From positions 1 to 64,000 of the forward strand of contig CALMGU010000076.1 in NCBI GenBank assembly GCA_937865685.1: DNA of 64,000 bases. The letters are read 5' to 3'. This DNA is from an uncultured Alphaproteobacteria bacterium. GTDB taxonomy: Bacteria > Pseudomonadota > Alphaproteobacteria > Micropepsales > Micropepsaceae. Positions 27,777 through 45,779 of the stretch are shown here, one piece after another. Below the pieces are notes generated by a model that searched no databases, was not told the DNA's origin, and saw nothing but the letters and a program-made list of their open reading frames with translations. Both the position numbers and the translations under genes were made by a program. Every line of letters starts with the position of its first letter. The first letter of the stretch is position 1.

Positions 27777-28601
27777 ATGACGAATGTGGTCATCCTCGAA
27801 CATGGGCGCCATGAGCGCAATTACTGGAGCGACATCTGGCGCTACCGGGAACTGTTCTATGTTCTGGCCTGGCGCGATGTCGCCGTTCGCTACAAGCAGA
27901 CCATCATCGGCGCGTCCTGGGCGCTGATCCGTCCCTTCCTCACCATGGTGGTGTTCACCGTGGTGTTCAGCCGGATCGCCAAATTGCCGTCCGACGGCGT
28001 CACGCCCTATCCCCTGATGGTGTTCGTCGGCACCCTGCCCTGGACCTTCTTCTCCACCGGCCTGACCGACGCCTCCAACAGCCTGATCGGCAATTCCAAC
28101 CTGATCAGCAAAGTCTATTTCCCCCGCCTGATTGTTCCCATCGCGGCGGTGGTGGTGGCGTTCGCGGATTTTCTCATCGCTTTCGCCATCCTGATCGGGA
28201 TGTTCTTCTGGTACCACTTCATGCCGACCTGGCACGTTGTGTTCTTTCCCGTCTTCGTTCTCGCCGCCATCGCCGCCTGCATCGGGCCTTCCCTGTGGAT
28301 CACCGCGCTCAACGTCAAATACCGGGACTTCCGCATCATCGTGCCCTTCATCGTGCAGCTGGGTCTCTACATCTCGCCCGTTGGCTTCAGCTCCAGCATC
28401 GTGCCCCCGCAATGGCGGCTGCTCTATTCGTTGAACCCGATCGTCGGCGTCATTGACGGATTCCGCTGGTGCCTTCTGGGCAATGACAGCCAGCTCTATC
28501 TGCCCGGCGTCGCGCTCAGCTTTGCCGTCATCATTTTCTTCATGTGGCTCGGCGTGCGCCAATTCCGCACCACCGAAAAGAGCTTCGCGGACCTGATCTG
28601 A
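27777..28601 (+). CDS. ABC-2 polysaccharide exporter, permease (Wzm-like)
   Basis: 274 residues with six membrane helices; ATG behind AGGAAG. Typical Wzm/KpsM features are the N-terminal YWSDIWRYRELFYVLAWRDV, VRYKQTIIGASWALIRPFL and the C-terminal SPVGFSSSIVPPQWRLLYSL followed by NPIVGVIDGFRW. It forms the channel that exports a lipid-linked polysaccharide across the inner membrane with the ATPase encoded one base downstream. Confidence 0.95.
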   Translation: MTNVVILEHGRHERNYWSDIWRYRELFYVLAWRDVAVRYKQTIIGASWALIRPFLTMVVFTVVFSRIAKLPSDGVTPYPLMVFVGTLPWTFFSTGLTDASNSLIGNSNLISKVYFPRLIVPIAAVVVAFADFLIAFAILIGMFFWYHFMPTWHVVFFPVFVLAAIAACIGPSLWITALNVKYRDFRIIVPFIVQLGLYISPVGFSSSIVPPQWRLLYSLNPIVGVIDGFRWCLLGNDSQLYLPGVALSFAVIIFFMWLGVRQFRTTEKSFADLI

Positions 28602-28602
28602 C

Positions 28603-29964
28603 ATGACAACACCGGTCATCACCGTCGAAAATCTCTCCAAGCGGTATCTGTTGGGACACCATTCCGATCCCAATATCCGCAACAAGGACGTCAATCTGCG
28701 CGACGCCATCGTGCGCACCGCCCGTAATGCCGTGCGCCGCACAGGGGATGTGGTGCGCGGCCGCAACATGATCCAGGGCGATGAGATCGAGGAATTCTGG
28801 GCGCTGAAAGGCGTGAGCTTCGACGTCAAGGAAGGCGAAGTCCTAGGCATCATCGGCCGCAACGGCGCGGGCAAGAGCACGTTGCTCAAGATCCTCAGCC
28901 GCATCACCGAACCGACCGGCGGCCGGGTGACCCTGAAGGGCCGCGTCGCCAGCCTTCTGGAAGTGGGCACCGGCTTTCACGCCGAATTGTCAGGCCGGGA
29001 GAACATCTTTCTCAATGGCGCCATTCTGGGCATGACCCGGGCCGATATCAAAAAGAAGTTCGACGAGATCGTCGCCTTCTCGGAAGTCGAACGCTTCCTC
29101 GACACGCCGGTCAAGCGCTATTCCTCGGGCATGTATGTGCGCCTGGCCTTCGCCGTGGCCGCGCATCTGGAGCCGGAAATCCTCATCGTTGACGAAGTGC
29201 TGGCCGTGGGCGATGCCGCCTTCCAGGCCAAATGCATGGGCAAGATGAGCTCGGTGGCGCAGGAAAACCGCACCGTCCTGTTCGTGAGCCACAATATGGG
29301 CGCGGTGAAGACCCTCACCACACGCTCGATCCTTCTGGAAAGCGGCGTGATCACCGCCAACGGCCCGTCGGAAACCGTGGTGGAGAATTACCTGATCCGC
29401 ACCCTGGATGCGCGCGCCAAGGCCTTGAAGGCCAAGAATCTGGAAAGCTTCCGCCGCGGCCGGACTTACGAAAATCCGCCGGCCAAAATTCTGGAAGTGA
29501 ACATCGCCAAACCCAACGAAGATCCGGATTCCTTGCCCGAGATCGAGCTGGGTTCCACTTTCACCATCGAAGTCACTCTGGATGTGGAACGCCCGATCGT
29601 GAATGGCGATCTCTGCGTCACTTTGATGAACTCGCAAGGCGACCGCGTCACCTCCTTGGTGGCATCCGACCGAGTCATGGGCCTGTCCATTCAGCCGGGT
29701 GAGAAAGTGATCAAGCTTTCGGTCCCCGACCTCTATCTGGCGCCGGGCCGTTATTTCGCCGAAGTCTGGCTGGACCCGATGATCGACGGCATCTCCTGCG
29801 ACGCCATCTTCGATTACCCGCTGCTGTCGGTGGTCAATAGCGGTCAGGTCACCCATGGCCTGACCCGCCCTTGGGGCTCGGTCTACAGCAAGGACGCCAA
29901 ATGGAGCGTCACGGAAAAGAAAGAAACCGCGCCGGCGGAAGCTTCGCCGCGCGTTGCGGTCTAG
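28603..29964 (+). CDS. ABC-2 polysaccharide exporter, ATPase with glycan-binding domain (Wzt-like)
   Basis: 453 residues. ABC domain: Walker A GRNGAGKST, signature YSSGMYVRLAFA, Walker B ILIVDEVLAVGD, switch His FVSHN. Residues 290-430 form a C-terminal beta-sandwich (GSTFTIEVTLDVERPIVNGD, MGLSIQPGEKVIKLSVPDLY) like the carbohydrate-binding domain of Wzt proteins that recognise the capped end of the polymer. Between the first strand and Walker A there is a longer insertion (about 15-55), as in other proteobacterial Wzt. It overlaps a hairpin at its stop codon. Confidence 0.95.
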   Translation: MTTPVITVENLSKRYLLGHHSDPNIRNKDVNLRDAIVRTARNAVRRTGDVVRGRNMIQGDEIEEFWALKGVSFDVKEGEVLGIIGRNGAGKSTLLKILSRITEPTGGRVTLKGRVASLLEVGTGFHAELSGRENIFLNGAILGMTRADIKKKFDEIVAFSEVERFLDTPVKRYSSGMYVRLAFAVAAHLEPEILIVDEVLAVGDAAFQAKCMGKMSSVAQENRTVLFVSHNMGAVKTLTTRSILLESGVITANGPSETVVENYLIRTLDARAKALKAKNLESFRRGRTYENPPAKILEVNIAKPNEDPDSLPEIELGSTFTIEVTLDVERPIVNGDLCVTLMNSQGDRVTSLVASDRVMGLSIQPGEKVIKLSVPDLYLAPGRYFAEVWLDPMIDGISCDAIFDYPLLSVVNSGQVTHGLTRPWGSVYSKDAKWSVTEKKETAPAEASPRVAV

Positions 29965-35215: not shown

Positions 35216-36124
35216 ATGTCGGCCCTGACCCTGGCGATCCGGCGCGCCTGGCAGCGCTGGGATCAGGCCGCTTACGCCCGGCTCTATGGCGGACGCAAAA
35301 GCCGCATGACGGGCGCCGGTCCAGGCCGGGCGCTGGACGATTTGCCGATGCAGCCCACGCTCCTTGTAGTCGCCCATCCCGACGATGAAGCATTGGGCGC
35401 AGGCGGATTGCTGACCCGTCTCACGAATGCCCGCATCGTGATCGTGACCGACGGCGCGCCGCGGGACGGCGTGGCGGCCCGCGCCGCCGGCTTTGATGGC
35501 AACGCTGCCTATCGGCGGACACGGGAAATTGAAACGGCGGATGCAATGACGCTGATCGGCCGCGGCGACATTCCGGTATATCGGCTTGGATTCTCCGACC
35601 AGCAGGCGGTCACCAACATTCCGCGCATCGTATCGCGCCTGATGGAAATCATGCGCGCGGAAAATTTCCGCTATGTCGTGACCCATCCGTATGAAGGCGG
35701 GCACCCGGATCACGATGCCACGGCGCTGGCGGTTCATGCCGCCTGCTTCCTTTTGCGCGAGGACGGATTCGAAGCGCCTCTGCCGGTGGAGATGACCAGC
35801 TACCATCTGGCTGGCGGCCGAATGGTCTATGGCGCTTTTCTCGCGGTCCCGGGCGCGGGGCCGGTGACGACAATCGCGTTCGATGCCGGCGAACAGGATC
35901 GCAAGCAGCGCATGCTCCAATGCTACCGGACCCAATATCGCACCTTGACCGAATTTCCGCTGGACGCGGAACGGTTCCGGACGGCGCCGCTTTACGATTT
36001 TCTAGAGCCGCCGCATCCGGGACCCTTGGCGTATGAAATTTTCATGTGGCGCATGGATGGAGCAGGTTGGCGCCGTGCGGCCGGGCGCGCGTTGAACCGG
36101 CTGGGTCTGCTTCGATCGTCCTGA
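35216..36124 (+). CDS. PIG-L family deacetylase
   Basis: 302 residues. The zinc-binding motif AHPDDEALGAGG near residue 55 and HPDHDATALAVHAA (about 170) define the PIG-L/LmbE fold. These enzymes remove acetyl from N-acetylglucosamine-type substrates. A divergent glycosyltransferase and the following acyl-modification genes suggest it acts on a sugar of the polysaccharide. SD is weak (GGGACTTGA before ATG at 35216). Confidence 0.92.
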   Translation: MSALTLAIRRAWQRWDQAAYARLYGGRKSRMTGAGPGRALDDLPMQPTLLVVAHPDDEALGAGGLLTRLTNARIVIVTDGAPRDGVAARAAGFDGNAAYRRTREIETADAMTLIGRGDIPVYRLGFSDQQAVTNIPRIVSRLMEIMRAENFRYVVTHPYEGGHPDHDATALAVHAACFLLREDGFEAPLPVEMTSYHLAGGRMVYGAFLAVPGAGPVTTIAFDAGEQDRKQRMLQCYRTQYRTLTEFPLDAERFRTAPLYDFLEPPHPGPLAYEIFMWRMDGAGWRRAAGRALNRLGLLRSS

Positions 36125-37848: not shown

Positions 37849-39741
37849 ATGTCGGTATCGGATCTTTGGTGGCTCCCGGAAAACGTGGACTGGAGCGATG
37901 AGGTTCGCTCGCTGGGCGGCGCGGCGGGATGGGACCGTTTCGTTTCCCTGGCGAATTGCCGGATGGATTTCCTGCGCACCGAGCGCCTCGACAAGCTGGC
38001 CCGGAAGAATTTCGGCGATCATCCGCCCACCGGTTTGACATTGCCGATCGTGCGCCTGGCGGTCCTGAGCTCGTCGATGGTCTCCCACCTTATTCCCGCC
38101 ATCCGGGTGGCGTTGATGCGCCGCGGGATGTGGGCCGAAATCTATACCAACCCCTTTGGCCAATATCTTCAGGATCTGATGGATCCGGCTTCGGCGCTTC
38201 ACGCCTTCAAGCCGAACGCGATTCTTTTCGCTTTCGATGCCCGGCACGCGCTGGGCAAAGCCAATGCCAGCCGCGATGCCGCCGCTTCGGACCGCACGGT
38301 CGAAGATTCGGCCGATCATTGCACCCATGTCTGGAACATGGCGCGCCAGGCCTTCGCCTGTCCCATCATCCAGCAGACCATCCTGCCGCTGTTTCCCGCG
38401 CTTCTGGGCAGCAACGAGCATCGCCTGCCCGGCTCGCCGCAAGCTATGACCCAGCGCATCAATCAGCGCATCCGCCAGCGCGCCGACGAGGCCGGTGTGG
38501 ATATTTTGGCCATCGATGCGCGCGCGATGGAGGACGGCCTCGGCAATTGGCACGATCCGGTCTTGTGGCACCGGGCGAAAATCGAGATCGCCCCACCCAT
38601 GGCGCCGCTTTATGGCGATCTGGTGGCCCGCATCGTCGCGGCCCAGCGCGGCCGCTCCTACAAATGCCTGGTGCTGGATCTGGACAATACGCTGTGGGGC
38701 GGAGTGATCGGCGATGACGGCATCGAAGGCATCGTCCTGGGCCAGGGCAGTTCCGAAGGCGAGGCCTTTATCGGCTTCCAAGATTATGCCCAGCGCCTGT
38801 CGGAGCGCGGCATCATCCTGGCGGTCTGTTCCAAGAATGACGAGACAATCGCGCTGACGCCGTTCGCCCGCCATCCGGACATGGTGCTGAAACGCTCGTC
38901 TTTCGCCGCCTTCGTCGCCAACTGGTCGGACAAGGCCACCAATCTTCGGGCCATCGCGGCTCAGATCAATATTGGGCTGGATGCCCTGGTGTTCGCCGAC
39001 GACAATCCGTTCGAGCGCAATCTGGTGCGCCGCGAACTGCCCATGGTCGCGGTGCCGGAACTGCCCGAAGACGCGGCCTTCTACGCGAAATGCATCGCCG
39101 ATGGCGGGTATTTCGAAAGCGTGCGGATGACGGCGGAAGATTTCTCCCGCGCCGGTCAGTACCAGGCCAATGCGGAACGCGAATTTGCCCGCCAGGCCAC
39201 TGCCGACCTTCCCGCCTATCTGAAAAGCCTGGAAATGGAGATGCGGGTCACGTCCTTCGACTCCCTCGGCCAGGCCCGCATCACCCAACTGATCAACAAG
39301 ACCAACCAGTTCAACCTTACCACCCGGCGTTATGCGGAGCGCGATGTCGAAGCGGCGATGGCCGACAAGGATACCGTCACCTTCCAGATCCGCCTGACCG
39401 ACAAATATGGCGATAACGGCATGATCGCCGTCGTCATCGCCAAGCCGTCATCGCGTCCCGGCGAGTTGATGATCGACACCTGGCTGATGAGCTGTCGCGT
39501 TCTGGGCCGGCAGGTCGAACACGCGACCTTGAATCTTCTCGTAGAGGAAGCATCGAAGCGGGGCTATCGCGCCGTGGTCGGCGAATTCCGTCCCACGGAA
39601 AAGAACGGTCTTGTCCGCGATCACTATGCGAAGCTGGGCTTCGAGGAAGACGGCGCCAATGATGCTGGTGGCAGCTTCTGGCGTCTTCCGGTCGAGACGT
39701 ACATACCGGTGCATACGCACATTAAAATTGGGGAAAATTAA
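37849..39741 (+). CDS. FkbH-like HAD-fold enzyme (glyceryl or similar acyl activation)
   Basis: 630 residues, longer than the ~360 of stand-alone FkbH because of a ~260-residue N-terminal domain (LAVLSSSMVSHLIPAIRVAL, NAILFAFDARHALG) seen in longer FkbH proteins. The HAD domain has motif I LVLDLDNTLWGGVIGDDG (DxDxT), VCSKNDE and VFADDNPFERNLVR. The C-terminal part contains INKTNQFNLTTRRY and a GNAT-like segment (VEHATLNLLVEEASKRGYRA). FkbH enzymes load a glyceryl group from 1,3-bisphosphoglycerate onto a carrier protein. An acyl carrier protein gene follows 2 bases downstream. ATG at 37849 fits the family start. Confidence 0.88.
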   Translation: MSVSDLWWLPENVDWSDEVRSLGGAAGWDRFVSLANCRMDFLRTERLDKLARKNFGDHPPTGLTLPIVRLAVLSSSMVSHLIPAIRVALMRRGMWAEIYTNPFGQYLQDLMDPASALHAFKPNAILFAFDARHALGKANASRDAAASDRTVEDSADHCTHVWNMARQAFACPIIQQTILPLFPALLGSNEHRLPGSPQAMTQRINQRIRQRADEAGVDILAIDARAMEDGLGNWHDPVLWHRAKIEIAPPMAPLYGDLVARIVAAQRGRSYKCLVLDLDNTLWGGVIGDDGIEGIVLGQGSSEGEAFIGFQDYAQRLSERGIILAVCSKNDETIALTPFARHPDMVLKRSSFAAFVANWSDKATNLRAIAAQINIGLDALVFADDNPFERNLVRRELPMVAVPELPEDAAFYAKCIADGGYFESVRMTAEDFSRAGQYQANAEREFARQATADLPAYLKSLEMEMRVTSFDSLGQARITQLINKTNQFNLTTRRYAERDVEAAMADKDTVTFQIRLTDKYGDNGMIAVVIAKPSSRPGELMIDTWLMSCRVLGRQVEHATLNLLVEEASKRGYRAVVGEFRPTEKNGLVRDHYAKLGFEEDGANDAGGSFWRLPVETYIPVHTHIKIGEN

Positions 39742-39743
39742 TC

Positions 39744-39989
39744 GTGACCGATCTTGAAATCATGGATGGAATAACGGAAGTCGTCCGCGAAGCGCTGGAC
39801 GACGACACGATCATCCTTACGCCCAGCAGCGTTGCTGGCGATTTTGCGGGTTGGGATTCCTTCAAGCACATCGCCATCGTCGTGGCGACGGAGATGCGCT
39901 TCGGCGTCAAGTTCCGGACGGCGGAAATCGAGTCGCTGAAGGAAATCGGCGACTTCGTCGCTCTCATCCGGAAGAAGAAGGGGGCTTAA
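39744..39989 (+). CDS. Acyl carrier protein
   Basis: 81 residues, GTG start. Four-helix carrier fold with the phosphopantetheine Ser in FAGWDSFKHIAIVVATEMRF (DSF) and a flexible end. It follows the FkbH gene by 2 bases and precedes the MBOAT gene, so it is presumed to carry the activated group from FkbH (or from the later AMP ligase) to the membrane acyltransferase. Confidence 0.9.
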   Translation: MTDLEIMDGITEVVREALDDDTIILTPSSVAGDFAGWDSFKHIAIVVATEMRFGVKFRTAEIESLKEIGDFVALIRKKKGA

Positions 39990-40059
39990 GGATGGCAAAC
40001 CGTCCGGCGGGGACCGGAAAAGCCGCTTGCGGCTTTCCGCATGGGGATGGGTAGACGCC

Positions 40060-41613
40060 TTGCTCTTCAACTCCCACATTTTCATTTTCGTCTTCATGCC
40101 GCTGGCGCTGTTGGCCTACTACCTGCTGGGCCGGATTAACCATCGCGCCGCCGAACTTTCGCTCGTCGTCAGCTCCTTGATTTTTTACGCCTGGTGGAAC
40201 CCGCCCTTCCTGCTCATCCTGATGAGCTCGATCGCCTTCAACTATTCGATCAGCCATTGGATCACCCGCAATGAAGGGTTCGATCTGCGCCAGAGCGCGA
40301 TCCTGGCGCTCGGCATCATCACCAACCTCGCGGTCCTGATCTATTACAAATATCTTTTCGCCTTGATGGGATTTCTGGATTCCATCGGCGTGACCAGCTT
40401 GAAACTCGATCCCGTCATCCTGCCGCTGGGCATCTCCTTTTATACCTTCACCCAGATCGGATATCTGGTCGATTGTCGCCAGGGCATGGCCAAGGAACGC
40501 GGCCTTCTCGATTACTGCCTGTTCGTCACCTTCTTCCCGCACCTGATCGCGGGGCCGATCCTCCATCACCGGGAGATCATGCCCCAATTCGCCAAGAGCG
40601 AAACTTACCGCGTCAGCCGCCGCAACATGGCGATCGGTCTTACCATCTTCATCATCGGGCTGGCCAAGAAGGTTCTGATCGCCGATTCCCTGAGCCAGGT
40701 GTCCGGCGCCGGCTTCGACGCGCCCGGCACATTGGGACTCATCCCCTCCTGGCTGACGGCACTGTCTTTTTCCCTTCAGATCTATTTCGATTTTTCCGGC
40801 TATTCCGACATGGCGATCGGGCTGGCTTACATGTTCAACATCCGCTTCCCCCTGAACTTCAATTCGCCCTACAAGGCCCGCAACATCATCGATTTCTGGC
40901 AGCGCTGGCATATGACCCTGACGCGCTACCTCACCCTCTATCTCTACAATCCCATGGCGATCTGGGTCACCCGCCGGCGCATCGCGCGCGGGGCGCCGAT
41001 CCTCACCCGCGACAGCAAGACGGTGGGCGGCTTCGTCACCATGATCGCCATCCCCACCCTCATCACCATCGTGCTGGCTGGCGTCTGGCACGGCGCGGGA
41101 TTGACCTTTCTCATATTCGGCCTGCTGCACGGCCTCTATCTGATCGTCAATCACGCCTGGCGCACTTTCGCGCCGGCGCGGATGCGGCAGGACCCGAAAG
41201 GCCGGGTCGCGCTGACCGCCACTGTGATCGTGCAAGTGCTGCTGACCTATCTTGTGGTGCTGGTGGCGCAGGTATTTTTCCGCGCCGGGACGGTGGGCGA
41301 TGCGACCGCGCTTCTTGCGGGCATGATCGGGCTGCACGCGGGCGGCGCTTTTGCCGGATGGGGATATAATTTCGGATCGGAATCGCAAAGCATCCTGCGG
41401 ATCGCGGCCTTTTTCGGAATGGCCTGGTTCCTGCCCAATACCCAGCAGATCATGGCCAAATTTCCCGCCGCGCTGGGCCAGATCGCGGCCAACCGCTACC
41501 GCCTTCTGGAATGGATGCCGGACCTGAAATGGGCGGTGTCCATGGGATTGGCCGCGGGGCTGGCGATCGCCAACCTGTCGCAGCATTCCGAATTCCTCTA
41601 TTTCCAATTCTGA
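40060..41613 (+). CDS. MBOAT membrane acyltransferase (DltB/AlgI type)
   Basis: 517 residues with 10-12 helices. It begins LFNSHIFIFVFMPLALLAYY, the family N-terminus, at a TTG with GGGGATGGG 8 bases upstream; another TTG at 40027 is less likely. AlgI/DltB motifs are present: ISFYTFTQIGYLVDCRQG, HLIAGPILHH, YFDFSGYSDMAIGLA, FWQRWHMTL and the active-site His in GVWHGAGLTFLIFG. Such proteins pass an acyl group from a carrier to an extracytoplasmic polymer. Confidence 0.93.
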   Translation: MLFNSHIFIFVFMPLALLAYYLLGRINHRAAELSLVVSSLIFYAWWNPPFLLILMSSIAFNYSISHWITRNEGFDLRQSAILALGIITNLAVLIYYKYLFALMGFLDSIGVTSLKLDPVILPLGISFYTFTQIGYLVDCRQGMAKERGLLDYCLFVTFFPHLIAGPILHHREIMPQFAKSETYRVSRRNMAIGLTIFIIGLAKKVLIADSLSQVSGAGFDAPGTLGLIPSWLTALSFSLQIYFDFSGYSDMAIGLAYMFNIRFPLNFNSPYKARNIIDFWQRWHMTLTRYLTLYLYNPMAIWVTRRRIARGAPILTRDSKTVGGFVTMIAIPTLITIVLAGVWHGAGLTFLIFGLLHGLYLIVNHAWRTFAPARMRQDPKGRVALTATVIVQVLLTYLVVLVAQVFFRAGTVGDATALLAGMIGLHAGGAFAGWGYNFGSESQSILRIAAFFGMAWFLPNTQQIMAKFPAALGQIAANRYRLLEWMPDLKWAVSMGLAAGLAIANLSQHSEFLYFQF

Positions 41614-41623
41614 CGGGCGCGCC

Positions 41624-42640
41624 GTGTCGAAGGACAAGACAAGTCTTTATCTGACGGCCCTGACGCTTCTGGTGGCGGCGGTTCTGGGCGGCATCGGGCT
41701 CTTGAACTATCTGGTCGATCCCTTGTGGTTCTTCGGCGGCAACAAACTTCAACCCCGCAATTTCTCCTGGGACGAACGCATCGCGCGCCTGGCGCGGTTT
41801 TCCGCCGGCGACCGCGATTATGACTGCTATATATTCGGCGCTTCCCGCGTGGGCATGATGAGCGAGTATGCGATCAAGGGACATAGCTGCTTCATGGTCT
41901 CGTTCGAAAACGGCTCGCCCCGCGAACTGATCGCCTATGCGCAATACATCAAGCGCAATGCCAAACGGGAGCCGGACCTGGTCGTGGTCGGCGTGGACGA
42001 TTTCGACTTCATCGATCAGGCGGATGCGAACAATGTGCCGCCGGACGTCCTTGCGAACCGAGCGCCGCATTTCTGGGATTATTACTTCTCCTGGGATGTC
42101 GCCACCTGGTCCCTCAAGACCCTGCTCGATCAATCGCCGAAGGCGCGCTATTTCGGCAAGGATTTGACCGGCCAGGTCCGCGCCGATGCCGGCACCATGC
42201 CGGTGCTGCACATGACGCTGAAGCCGGGACAGAAATGGCATATGAGCCTGAACAGCGTGGCGCAATATGCCAAATTCCGGCAGATATTCCCCAAGGCGCA
42301 TCTGGTGGGCTATGCCACGCCGGTGGCGGCCGACAAGATCGTGCAATTCAAGGAAACGGGCCTTCTGCCCTTCTATCTGCAAGCCCTGCAAAAGACTTCG
42401 GCCCAATTCGACGAAATGTATGACTTCTCCATCCCCTCCCAGGTCACGTCCGATCCGAAATTGACGTATGACGGTTCGCATTATCAACCAGCCGTGTCCG
42501 GCCGGATCGCCGCCGCAATCCAGAATCACGAGCCGTCTTTCGGGATCGTGCTTTCGGGCCGCACGCCAGAGGAAATCACCCGGCTTTACGCCGACCGGCT
42601 GGAAATATATGCCCCGCAGGGCATCTCGCGGGCGGAATGA
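41624..42640 (+). CDS. SGNH-like membrane-anchored protein, DltD/AlgJ-like role
   Basis: 338 residues, GTG start. One N-terminal helix (LYLTALTLLVAAVLGGIGLL) anchors it; the rest is extracytoplasmic. SGNH-type signs are CYIFGASRVGMMSEYAI (the GxSR region, Ser as possible nucleophile), DLVVVGVDDFDFIDQ and a C-terminal YDGSHYQP (DGSHY, the Asp-His block). Proteins like AlgJ/DltD in the same gene arrangement help an MBOAT partner to acylate a polymer. Ten bases separate it from the MBOAT stop. Family not certain, role by context. Confidence 0.75.
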   Translation: MSKDKTSLYLTALTLLVAAVLGGIGLLNYLVDPLWFFGGNKLQPRNFSWDERIARLARFSAGDRDYDCYIFGASRVGMMSEYAIKGHSCFMVSFENGSPRELIAYAQYIKRNAKREPDLVVVGVDDFDFIDQADANNVPPDVLANRAPHFWDYYFSWDVATWSLKTLLDQSPKARYFGKDLTGQVRADAGTMPVLHMTLKPGQKWHMSLNSVAQYAKFRQIFPKAHLVGYATPVAADKIVQFKETGLLPFYLQALQKTSAQFDEMYDFSIPSQVTSDPKLTYDGSHYQPAVSGRIAAAIQNHEPSFGIVLSGRTPEEITRLYADRLEIYAPQGISRAE

Positions 42641-42932
42641 CCGGCGGTTTCCGGCCGCGCCCGCTCGGGGAAGGCCGTGGCGGGCCGGACGGCCCTGGCT
42701 TAGTATGACGCCCGGAAAATGGCCTGTTCGCGCATTCCCTTCCGAAGCATTAACTGCGACCGTTAACCAGCCGAGCGTCTTTTCCAGATTATCAATGAGT
42801 TTGGCCTGAGAATAAGCGATGGAATGGCGGCCTTAAGGGATCACCAATCCGCCCCTATCTCGGGAATGTCCCAGGTGACCGGGTTGGACTTGCAGACGCG
42901 AATTGTAGCCATATGCCTGGGATGACTTGCGG

Positions 42933-45779
42933 ATGACCCTCGACGATCTTCTCTTTCGTGCGGCGGCGCAGTATCCCGGCAAGCCCGCGCTGATCTTTCA
43001 GAAGGAGACCATTCTTTATTCCACGCTTGCCGCCGATGCGCGCCGCTTCGCCTATGCAGTGCGCCGGGCGGGGATCGGTGCCGGCGAGCGGATCGGCATT
43101 TTCCTTGAGAAGCGTCCGGAAGCGGCGGTCGCGATCATGGGTGCGGCGGCGGCCGATACGGTCTTCGTGCCCATCAATCCCGCCTTGCGGCCCGCACAGG
43201 TCGCGCATCTGGTCAAGGATTGCGGCATCAAGCTTCTCGTCACCTCCCGCGCCCGGATTCCCGAACTGGAAGAAGCGCTGGCCGGTTGCCCTTCGCTGCA
43301 GCGGATCGTTTTTGTCGAAGATGAAGACGTCCCGCCGCAAACCAAGGGCGCGCCCAGCCAATCGCTGCGCCGGTTCCTGGAGACGGGCTTGGACAAGGAG
43401 CCCACCTGGCCGCGCGGCGCCGATACCGACATGGTGGGCATTCTCTACACTTCCGGTTCGACGGGCGAGCCCAAAGGCGTGATGCTTTCGCACAAGAATT
43501 TCGTCGCCAGGGCGAAATGCGTCTCGGAATATCTGGACCTCAACCCGGACGACCGGATCCTGCACCTTCCCCATTACAGCTTCGGCTTCGGGCTCGATCA
43601 ACTGTTCAACGGCTTTTACGCCGGCGCCACGGGCGTGCTGCACAATTATGTGACGCCGCAGGCCTTGATGAAGCTGATGCTGGAAGAACGCATCACCGGG
43701 CTTGCCGGCGTGCCGACGGCCCTGGTGGCGCTGACGGCGCTGGACTGGCCTTTGGAGATCCGCGAGCATCTGCGCTACATCGCGGCCGCGGGCGGGCGCA
43801 TGCCGGAAAGCGCCACCCGCTATCTGCGTTGCCTGGCCCCGGAGGCCCGCATCTTCCTAATGTACGGCCAGACCGAGACTTTGCGCTCGACCTTTCTTCC
43901 CCCCAGCGAAGTGGATCGCCACCCCAATTCGATGGGCCGGCCGATCGCATGTTCGAATATTTATGTGGTGCGGGCGGACGGAACCTTGTGCGGCCCGAAC
44001 GAGCAGGGCGAACTGGTGCAGACAGGCGACACCGTGGCGATGGGCTATTGGAACGATCCGGAGCGCACCGCGCAGGTCTTCCGGCCGGCGCCCGTTGAAA
44101 CCGCGGCACCTGGGTCGCAGCCTAAGATCGGCGTCTGGTCCGGCGATATCGTCACCACTGACGAAGACGGGCGGCTTTATTACATCGGCCGCCAGGACGA
44201 TCTGATCAAGACCAGCGGCTATCGCGTCAGCCCTACCGAGATCGAAGATGTTCTCTATGCCAGCGGGCTGGTGAGCACAGCCGCCGTGGTCGGCGTCAAG
44301 CATGCCGATCTGGGCCAGGTCGTGATCGCCTTCGTCACCACCCAGGGCAATGGCGCCTTGGACCGCGACGGATTGCTTGGCCATTGCCGCCGCGAACTGC
44401 CGGGCTACATGCTGCCCTACCAGATCGTCCACCGCGACAGCCTTCCCCTCAACGCCAATTCCAAGATCGACCGGCGGCGCCTGGTTTCGGAATATGGCGA
44501 GCAGCTCCATGACACGGTTCTGGAACGCCCCCGCGCCGCCTTGGACCTGCCAGCCCGGGAAAAATCCGATCTGGCCGGCCGGACGCTGGAATTCCTGGGC
44601 ATGCGCCGCCGCACCTCCGCCAGTGTGGCCGACATTTTCGCCTCCGCCTTCAATCTCAAATATGTCGATGAGCAGAAATCCTTCTCCTCGCTTGGCGGCG
44701 ATTCGCTGTCGTATGTCGATGTCTCCACCGCGCTGGAAGATTTCATCGGCCGCATTCCCGAAGGCTGGGAAAATATGTCGATCGCCGAGCTGGAGCAGAT
44801 TCCGAGATCCAATTCCTCCAGCACCACCATCGCACCGGACGTTCTGTTGCGCGCCGCAGCGATTTTCGGCGTGGTGGCGCTGCACAACCGCTATTCCAGC
44901 GTGGCGGGCGGTCCCAGCCTTCTCTTCGTGCTGTCCGGATTGAGCTTTGCCCGCTTCGCCTGGAACGGTGATCCCGGCCAGGTGCGCCGGTCGATCTTCG
45001 GAACCATGATGAAAGTCGTGATCCCGACCATGCTGATGCTGCTGATGTTCTTTGTCGGCGACGGCATTTTCCACTGGAGCACGATTTTCTTCTACGACAA
45101 TTTCGTGGAGCCCGAGTCGCCGCTATGGTGGGAAGGCGCCTGGTTCGTGCAGGTCCTGTTCCAGATTCTTCTTTTCATGGGGGCCCTAGCCTTCATTCCG
45201 GGCGTCGCCCCGTTCGGCGAAAAGCACCGTTATGCGTTCGGGCTGGTGCTGACAGCGGGCACCTTCCTGCTGCATTACATCATGGCGCTGACCGTACACG
45301 CGCCGATCATGATGTTCGGCCATCTGCCGCAATTCTTCCTCTGGCAGTTCGCGCTGGGCTGGCTGGTGTTCAGCGCCAAAAGTCAGCTGCAACGGGTGAT
45401 CACGCTGGCGATCCTGTTCGGCTGCATGGGCGCACTGACCACCATCAATGGCATGAGCGGCGACTACCTGCTGCAGCATCATGCGCCCTATTGGCTGGGC
45501 CTGGGCACGCTTCTTCTATTGTGGATGCCGCCCGTCCCGCTTCCGCGCGTTATCGCCGCGCCCATCGTCACGATCGCCAAATCCACACTCTTCATCTATC
45601 TGTTCCACTGGCCCTTCGATGTGGTGGCTTACCGGTGGCTGCATATCAATGGCGGCCCGCTGGGGATCATCATTGGGTTCGCCGGCAGTCTGGCGGTGTG
45701 GGCGCTTTATGAAGGTCTGGTCCGGATGTTGCGTTCGATGCGCGGCACAAACCGGCAGACCGCCGACGTTTTCGGCTAG
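42933..45779 (+). CDS. Trimodular AMP-ligase / carrier domain / membrane acyltransferase
   Basis: 948 residues. Residues 1-540 are an adenylating ligase: GILYTSGSTGEPKGVMLSH (phosphate loop), MYGQTE, GRQDDLIKTSGYRVSPTEIE, and LPLNANSKIDRR with the catalytic Lys. Residues about 570-640 hold a carrier domain with LGGDSLSYVDV (phosphopantetheine Ser). Residues about 660-940 have ten helices of Acyltransferase-3 type with the conserved His of VVALHNRYSS and LLFVLSGLSFARF. XrtA-associated ligases (TIGR03098) normally stand alone; the fusion is unusual. It would activate an acid, load it on its own carrier and transfer it at the membrane. ATG at 42933 is preferred to TTG at 42927. Confidence 0.88.
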   Translation: MTLDDLLFRAAAQYPGKPALIFQKETILYSTLAADARRFAYAVRRAGIGAGERIGIFLEKRPEAAVAIMGAAAADTVFVPINPALRPAQVAHLVKDCGIKLLVTSRARIPELEEALAGCPSLQRIVFVEDEDVPPQTKGAPSQSLRRFLETGLDKEPTWPRGADTDMVGILYTSGSTGEPKGVMLSHKNFVARAKCVSEYLDLNPDDRILHLPHYSFGFGLDQLFNGFYAGATGVLHNYVTPQALMKLMLEERITGLAGVPTALVALTALDWPLEIREHLRYIAAAGGRMPESATRYLRCLAPEARIFLMYGQTETLRSTFLPPSEVDRHPNSMGRPIACSNIYVVRADGTLCGPNEQGELVQTGDTVAMGYWNDPERTAQVFRPAPVETAAPGSQPKIGVWSGDIVTTDEDGRLYYIGRQDDLIKTSGYRVSPTEIEDVLYASGLVSTAAVVGVKHADLGQVVIAFVTTQGNGALDRDGLLGHCRRELPGYMLPYQIVHRDSLPLNANSKIDRRRLVSEYGEQLHDTVLERPRAALDLPAREKSDLAGRTLEFLGMRRRTSASVADIFASAFNLKYVDEQKSFSSLGGDSLSYVDVSTALEDFIGRIPEGWENMSIAELEQIPRSNSSSTTIAPDVLLRAAAIFGVVALHNRYSSVAGGPSLLFVLSGLSFARFAWNGDPGQVRRSIFGTMMKVVIPTMLMLLMFFVGDGIFHWSTIFFYDNFVEPESPLWWEGAWFVQVLFQILLFMGALAFIPGVAPFGEKHRYAFGLVLTAGTFLLHYIMALTVHAPIMMFGHLPQFFLWQFALGWLVFSAKSQLQRVITLAILFGCMGALTTINGMSGDYLLQHHAPYWLGLGTLLLLWMPPVPLPRVIAAPIVTIAKSTLFIYLFHWPFDVVAYRWLHINGGPLGIIIGFAGSLAVWALYEGLVRMLRSMRGTNRQTADVFG

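Follow-up and report, generated by a model that had tools for sequence, protein, structure and literature searches.

A probable Dlt-like acyl-decoration module in a Micropepsaceae alphaproteobacterium, with FkbH in place of DltA

A five-gene run in a Micropepsaceae alphaproteobacterium probably has at its core a Dlt-like acyl-decoration module in which DltA is replaced by FkbH, with a second, fused acylation machine added in this genus. The window, that is, the whole stretch of DNA that was analyzed, covers 64,000 nucleotides of contig C76 from a 3.26 Mb draft genome. The original prediction placed FkbH, a carrier protein, an MBOAT, an SGNH-type protein and an AMP ligase in one cluster on one strand, and each of these proteins was found on the + strand at matching coordinates with its key motifs intact. 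That description missed two upstream genes, encoding a PIG-L deacetylase and an FMN dehydrogenase, as well as the fusion of the ligase to a carrier and an AT3 domain of its own. The full block reads as follows:

35216..36124, + strand: deacetylase of the PIG-L family, opening the conserved block (PF02585, E 6e-20); position kept in three relatives at 55-90% identity
36344..37708, + strand: FMN-dependent alpha-hydroxy-acid dehydrogenase (PF01070, E 3e-122); position kept in three relatives at 67-96% identity
37849..39741, + strand: FkbH, HAD-IIIC glyceryl transferase/phosphatase, proposed ACP loader (TIGR01686, 305 bits)
39744..39989, + strand: stand-alone acyl carrier protein, ACP (weak ACP models; GWDS serine invariant in 82 homologues)
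40027..41613, + strand: MBOAT, DltB-like membrane O-acyltransferase (PF03062; DltB model; DltB structures, E 1.7e-26)
41624..42640, + strand: membrane-anchored SGNH-fold protein in a DltD-like position (AlphaFold2 model; conserved motifs)
42927..45779, + strand: adenylation domain (1-520), carrier (GGDSL at 590) and AT3 membrane acyltransferase (about 640-927) in one protein (TIGR03098, PF01757, GGDSL)

The order of the seven genes is the same in three relatives (G036, G033 and G018), at about 53-98% identity to the window; the block occupies single contigs in two of them and is spread over two contigs in G033. Of the 96 genomes of the order that were compared, only these three and the window genome have complete sets. 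Two more FkbH genes with an MBOAT nearby, in different arrangements, belong to G080 and G086, and FkbH genes of the order that are more distant (L032-L036) have none in their vicinity.

FkbH carries the FkbH domain and the HAD motifs of the glyceryl transferase/phosphatase family. Its score against TIGR01686 is about twice the cut-off of 147, and the motifs DLDNT, SKN, DDNP and SCRVL are intact and nearly invariant across 92 homologues; the sole solved relative is 3SLR. Position 37849 is the conserved start. A longer reading frame from 37741 was rejected, as relatives carry stops upstream and the extension is therefore unconserved. The ACP, 81 aa long, starts 2 bases past the FkbH stop. Its matches to ACP models are weak, and the phosphopantetheine serine in GWDS is kept in 82 of 82 homologues.

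The MBOAT matches PF03062 (E 7e-21) and the DltB model TIGR04091 (E 3e-50), the latter at 172 bits against a cut-off of 375, and its best solved match is DltB. By sequence it is related to DltB without being an orthologue at the curated threshold. Its true start is probably about 12 codons inside 40027, and two histidines of active-site type (WHG and RWH) are invariant in 56 homologues. No other MBOAT was found in the genome. A second MBOAT and SGNH pair was seen in the relatives G033 and G036 (L023:3-2445 and L026:1-1552), followed by an FAD-dependent amino-acid-oxidase-like gene; SGNH identity is about 61-62%, and the contigs end at the MBOAT.

The SGNH-type protein has no Pfam match at E 0.001, the DltD family included. 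An AlphaFold2 model built with eight homologues (pLDDT 74, pTM 0.76) consists of an N-terminal helix (3-31) and an SGNH/GDSL-hydrolase domain. The VIA list for this model includes PAF acetylhydrolase, sialate esterases, PatB, OatA and DltD; the match to DltD extends over 207 residues (Z 9.7, rmsd 4.3), with other SGNH enzymes also listed. Foldseek returned the same fold with weak E-values (best 5e-3). G72-S74, D283 and H286 are invariant in the family. For the largest SGNH-like family found elsewhere (18 loci, Stutzerimonas and others), the model reached pLDDT 84 and the top Foldseek hits were DltD structures (E 2e-5). Comparison by hhalign of SGNH families from different locus types did not find homology (probabilities 0.1-48%), so our claim for these proteins is limited to fold and motifs; they may be esterases.

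FkbH, ACP, MBOAT and SGNH genes form a real and widespread unit. The FkbH alignment was scanned against 84,980 species genomes and 80 loci were kept; leaving out one already-counted locus gave 79, and statistics were computed on the 52 loci with 4 kb or more of flank on each side. ACP and MBOAT both lie within 5 kb of FkbH in 47 of the 79 loci. Over the same distance, 50 of the 52 loci have an ACP, 38 an MBOAT and 37 both; by our arithmetic, one MBOAT per ~4 Mb genome would give MBOAT linkage in roughly 0.3% of cases, which the observed linkage exceeds by a wide margin. A recurrent SGNH-like family is also present in 26 of the 37 loci, 11 MBOAT loci have no recognized SGNH family and FkbH occurs without an MBOAT in 14 of the 52. 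Gene order varies (FkbH-ACP-MBOAT-SGNH, MBOAT-FkbH-ACP-SGNH, ACP-FkbH-SGNH-MBOAT and ACP-FkbH-MBOAT-SGNH), and an MBOAT accompanies FkbH in loci of Pseudomonadota, Acidobacteriota, Nitrospinota and Vulcanimicrobiota. Mapped on the FkbH tree, loci with a linked MBOAT form clusters, and the linkage needs 10 changes, at least six of them forced by well-supported branches. Recurrent neighbors include glycosyltransferases, the GDP-sugar dehydratase family, Wzx-type flippases and ABC exporters.

Plasmids also carry the unit. On pSymB of Sinorhizobium meliloti (L127:8834-13869), MBOAT, SGNH-like, ACP and FkbH genes lie upstream of RkpR and an ABC exporter for capsule export; the SGNH-like protein is anchored, has GGS...DPGH motifs and is annotated 'TonB-dependent receptor'. 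FkbH is present in 39 Sinorhizobium plasmid records, and on a Rhodobacteraceae plasmid the order ACP-FkbH-MBOAT is continued by the gene for a 358-aa protein that contains a GSS motif.

An AMP ligase lies within 5 kb of FkbH in only 3 of the 52 loci, one of them with an MBOAT, and this absence is fairly robust because the ligase profile also detected ligases at only 26-31% identity. With AMP ligases nearly absent, FkbH most likely takes the role of DltA as ACP loader. The original prediction had likewise made FkbH the loader of the carrier, and the co-occurrence of the four-gene set in distant bacteria, nearly always without an AMP ligase, supports this. The transfer of the group across the membrane by the MBOAT and SGNH pair, also proposed there, gains support from genes that travel with FkbH-ACP and from the second SGNH family, which resembles DltD best. 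The proposal is supported for its loader and its transfer pair, which are linked across distant bacteria in several orders, and not for the ligase as DltA.

The fifth gene encodes a 950-aa protein, larger than DltA, that joins adenylation (AMP-binding and AMP-binding_C), a GGDSL carrier and Acyl_transf_3. It scores 611 bits against TIGR03098, the exosortase-A-associated ligase (cut-off 592), and 38.5 against PF01757 (threshold 31). DltA structures are among its matches and score under several NRPS adenylation domains. Like canonical TIGR03098 ligases, it passes the cut-off with its adenylation domain and lies at an apparently XrtA-type exopolysaccharide (EPS) locus; unlike them, it is fused to a carrier and AT3, and its pocket motif is SFGFG in all four fusion proteins, with the canonical Asp235 replaced by Gly, where members from other Alphaproteobacteria have SFDAG or SFDYG. 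In amino-acid-activating adenylation domains this Asp holds the alpha-amino group, and a Gly at the position is known in hydroxy-acid-activating domains, which offers a lead only. The substrate of the fusion is probably a carboxylic acid that lacks an alpha-amino group. Two specificities were rejected, that of a D-Ala ligase on architecture and pocket, and that for glycine, to which the closest structure (LgrA module 2) pointed, on the loss of Asp235. No adenylation-carrier-AT3 fusion was found outside this genus in a 386-genome sample of the class, and adenylation or carrier fusions are unmentioned in the AT3 literature examined.

The original prediction took this ligase for the DltA-like part of the system. 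Its place in the same block in four genomes, together with the DltA structures among its matches, would suit one undivided Dlt route, with the AMP ligase in the role of DltA and FkbH as an extra activator on the same carrier. We consider that arrangement very unlikely. The ligase belongs to TIGR03098 and brings its own carrier and AT3, about 220-290 bases separate it from the SGNH gene across the four genomes (286 in the window) and nearly all other FkbH-ACP-MBOAT loci have no ligase. No promoter or terminator signal above shuffles was detected in this gap. The fusion is most likely a second, separate acylation machine.

Read with FkbH as loader, the module has in common with the Dlt system of teichoic acid D-alanylation (DltA-DltB-DltC-DltD) its contiguous genes and a small stand-alone carrier beside the MBOAT; the MBOAT and the anchored SGNH protein resemble DltB and DltD and may be their counterparts. 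The systems differ in the loader, which is DltA with D-Ala in one and putatively FkbH with glyceryl in the other. The setting differs as well, with a Gram-negative polysaccharide locus here, presumably no teichoic acid and a nearby ligase that is a separate fusion. AlgI/AlgJ-type and PatA/PatB O-acetylation systems acylate surface glycans through an MBOAT with an SGNH partner. They use an acetyl donor without a dedicated ACP, whereas an ACP and FkbH are linked to the pair here.

The nature of the loaded group is suggested by the FkbH family, whose members pair with an adjacent stand-alone ACP in the FK520, tetronate and oxazolomycin pathways (PMC7489565); in the window, too, an ACP adjoins FkbH, and the FkbH motifs are intact. 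The partner in those pathways is a PKS, FabH-like or dehydrogenase enzyme, and here it is a membrane O-acyltransferase. By analogy, FkbH would use the acyl phosphate of 1,3-bisphosphoglycerate as its source of 3-phosphoglycerate, remove the phosphate and load D-glyceryl onto the small ACP. If DltB/DltD and AlgI/AlgJ-type systems are a guide, the DltB-like MBOAT would then work at the inner face on the ACP thioester. The anchored SGNH protein would help to hand the group to a surface polysaccharide outside. In other lineages, neighboring methyltransferases or SDR dehydrogenases may alter the ACP-bound glyceryl. In this Micropepsaceae genus, the added adenylation-carrier-AT3 protein would probably transfer its acid in the same surface pathway.

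A rival reading places such alteration ahead of transfer, with the ACP-bound glyceryl converted to, for example, hydroxymalonyl or O-methylglyceryl along the lines of methoxymalonyl-ACP synthesis; the decoration would then not be plain glycerate. A methyltransferase occurs together with an MBOAT in 6 of the 52 loci, and the order ACP-SDR-SDR-FkbH in L102, L114 and L118 suggests that a carrier-bound group is modified before use. The methoxymalonyl route (PMC7489565) and the dimethylglyceric acid on Campylobacter flagellar sugars (PMC7099621) are precedents, and in the window an FMN dehydrogenase precedes FkbH. Most MBOAT loci, the window included, nevertheless have no methyltransferase or SDR beside FkbH, and the FMN dehydrogenase was found next to FkbH in this clade only. 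The closest NCBIfam models of the FMN dehydrogenase are L-lactate dehydrogenases, with scores below the cut-off. Its family acts on free 2-hydroxy acids, which also counts against rebuilding on the carrier. We judge this variant rather improbable.

Some FkbH-ACP pairs have no MBOAT, which leaves room for a further reading in which glyceryl-ACP feeds an amide-forming or cytoplasmic transfer to give an N-acyl sugar and the MBOAT and SGNH proteins perform ordinary O-acetylation nearby. On an annotated Niveispirillum plasmid (L128:7989-12469), the genes after FkbH-ACP encode a WcbI-type transferase and a MaoC-SDR protein in place of the MBOAT, and PIG-L could free an amine in the window cluster. 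We judge this unlikely, since FkbH-ACP-MBOAT adjacency recurs in varied orders and phyla, often with SGNH. Given the WcbI transferase after FkbH-ACP, a glyceryl-ACP donor, if such it is, may serve different transferases, and the MBOAT may draw on some other donor.

Under the preferred reading of O-acyl transfer to a surface glycan, two acceptors are equal candidates. The seven-gene block is located between a Wzm/Wzt-like ABC exporter (27777-29964) and an EPS locus, apparently of the XrtA/PEP-CTERM type, at about 46 to 61 kb of the window. The decorated glycan may be the one exported by Wzm/Wzt, as the exporter is near the block and directly adjoins it in the relative G033 (L024), or it may be the XrtA-type EPS. 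In the EPS locus, models for EpsB_2, an amidotransferase, stp1, FemAB, a deacetylase and an export protein score over their cut-offs, and the chain-length protein and others score below. An exosortase A homologue (G000:C58:8160-8927; 143 bits against a cut-off of 208) lies on a contig separate from the EPS locus. Polyketide and peptide pathways are the best-known setting of FkbH, and in suomilide FkbH occurs with an MBOAT that acts on a sugar, so the target might instead be a small secreted molecule or lipid and no polysaccharide. That outcome appears distinctly unlikely, as neither a PKS nor an NRPS assembly line was seen in the annotated part of the window, the block has XrtA-type EPS genes and Wzm/Wzt as neighbors and the S. 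meliloti set has a capsule exporter next to it.

Searches of the open-licence literature found no relevant report for FkbH with exopolysaccharide or O-antigen, and nothing for the HAD-IIIC/MBOAT/ACP/SGNH combination. This is provisionally consistent with the original suggestion that the route is undescribed, with the qualification that Campylobacter flagella already provide a record of FkbH-type genes and of dimethylglyceric acid on surface sugars (PMC7099621). In Campylobacter, as proposed here, a glyceric-acid-type acyl group sits on a surface sugar, the flagellar pseudaminic acid, and the flagellar glycan locus holds an FkbH-domain gene, cj1302, which may be linked to the modification; an MBOAT/SGNH export route is not described for that system (PMC7099621). 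Gellan gum carries L-glycerate (PMC9104527). No genes for it were named in the literature searched, and Sphingomonas elodea is not among the 80 FkbH loci kept. FkbH should give D-glyceryl as opposed to the L-glycerate of gellan, and a direct link should not be assumed.

Taken more broadly, the chances seem about even that these loci represent an unnamed, widespread class of surface-glycan acylation. In this class, FkbH would charge the carrier from 1,3-bisphosphoglycerate instead of through ATP and an adenylating ligase, and MBOAT and SGNH proteins would deliver glyceryl or a derivative outside, joined here by a one-protein adenylation-carrier-AT3 machine. The presence of the quartet on S. meliloti pSymB makes the module testable by knockouts in a laboratory model. 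If the proposal is true, the loci would supply candidates for the genes that put glycerate and methylglycerate on bacterial polysaccharides, and the Dlt layout would be a general chassis with a swappable loader, tying surface decoration directly to a glycolytic intermediate.
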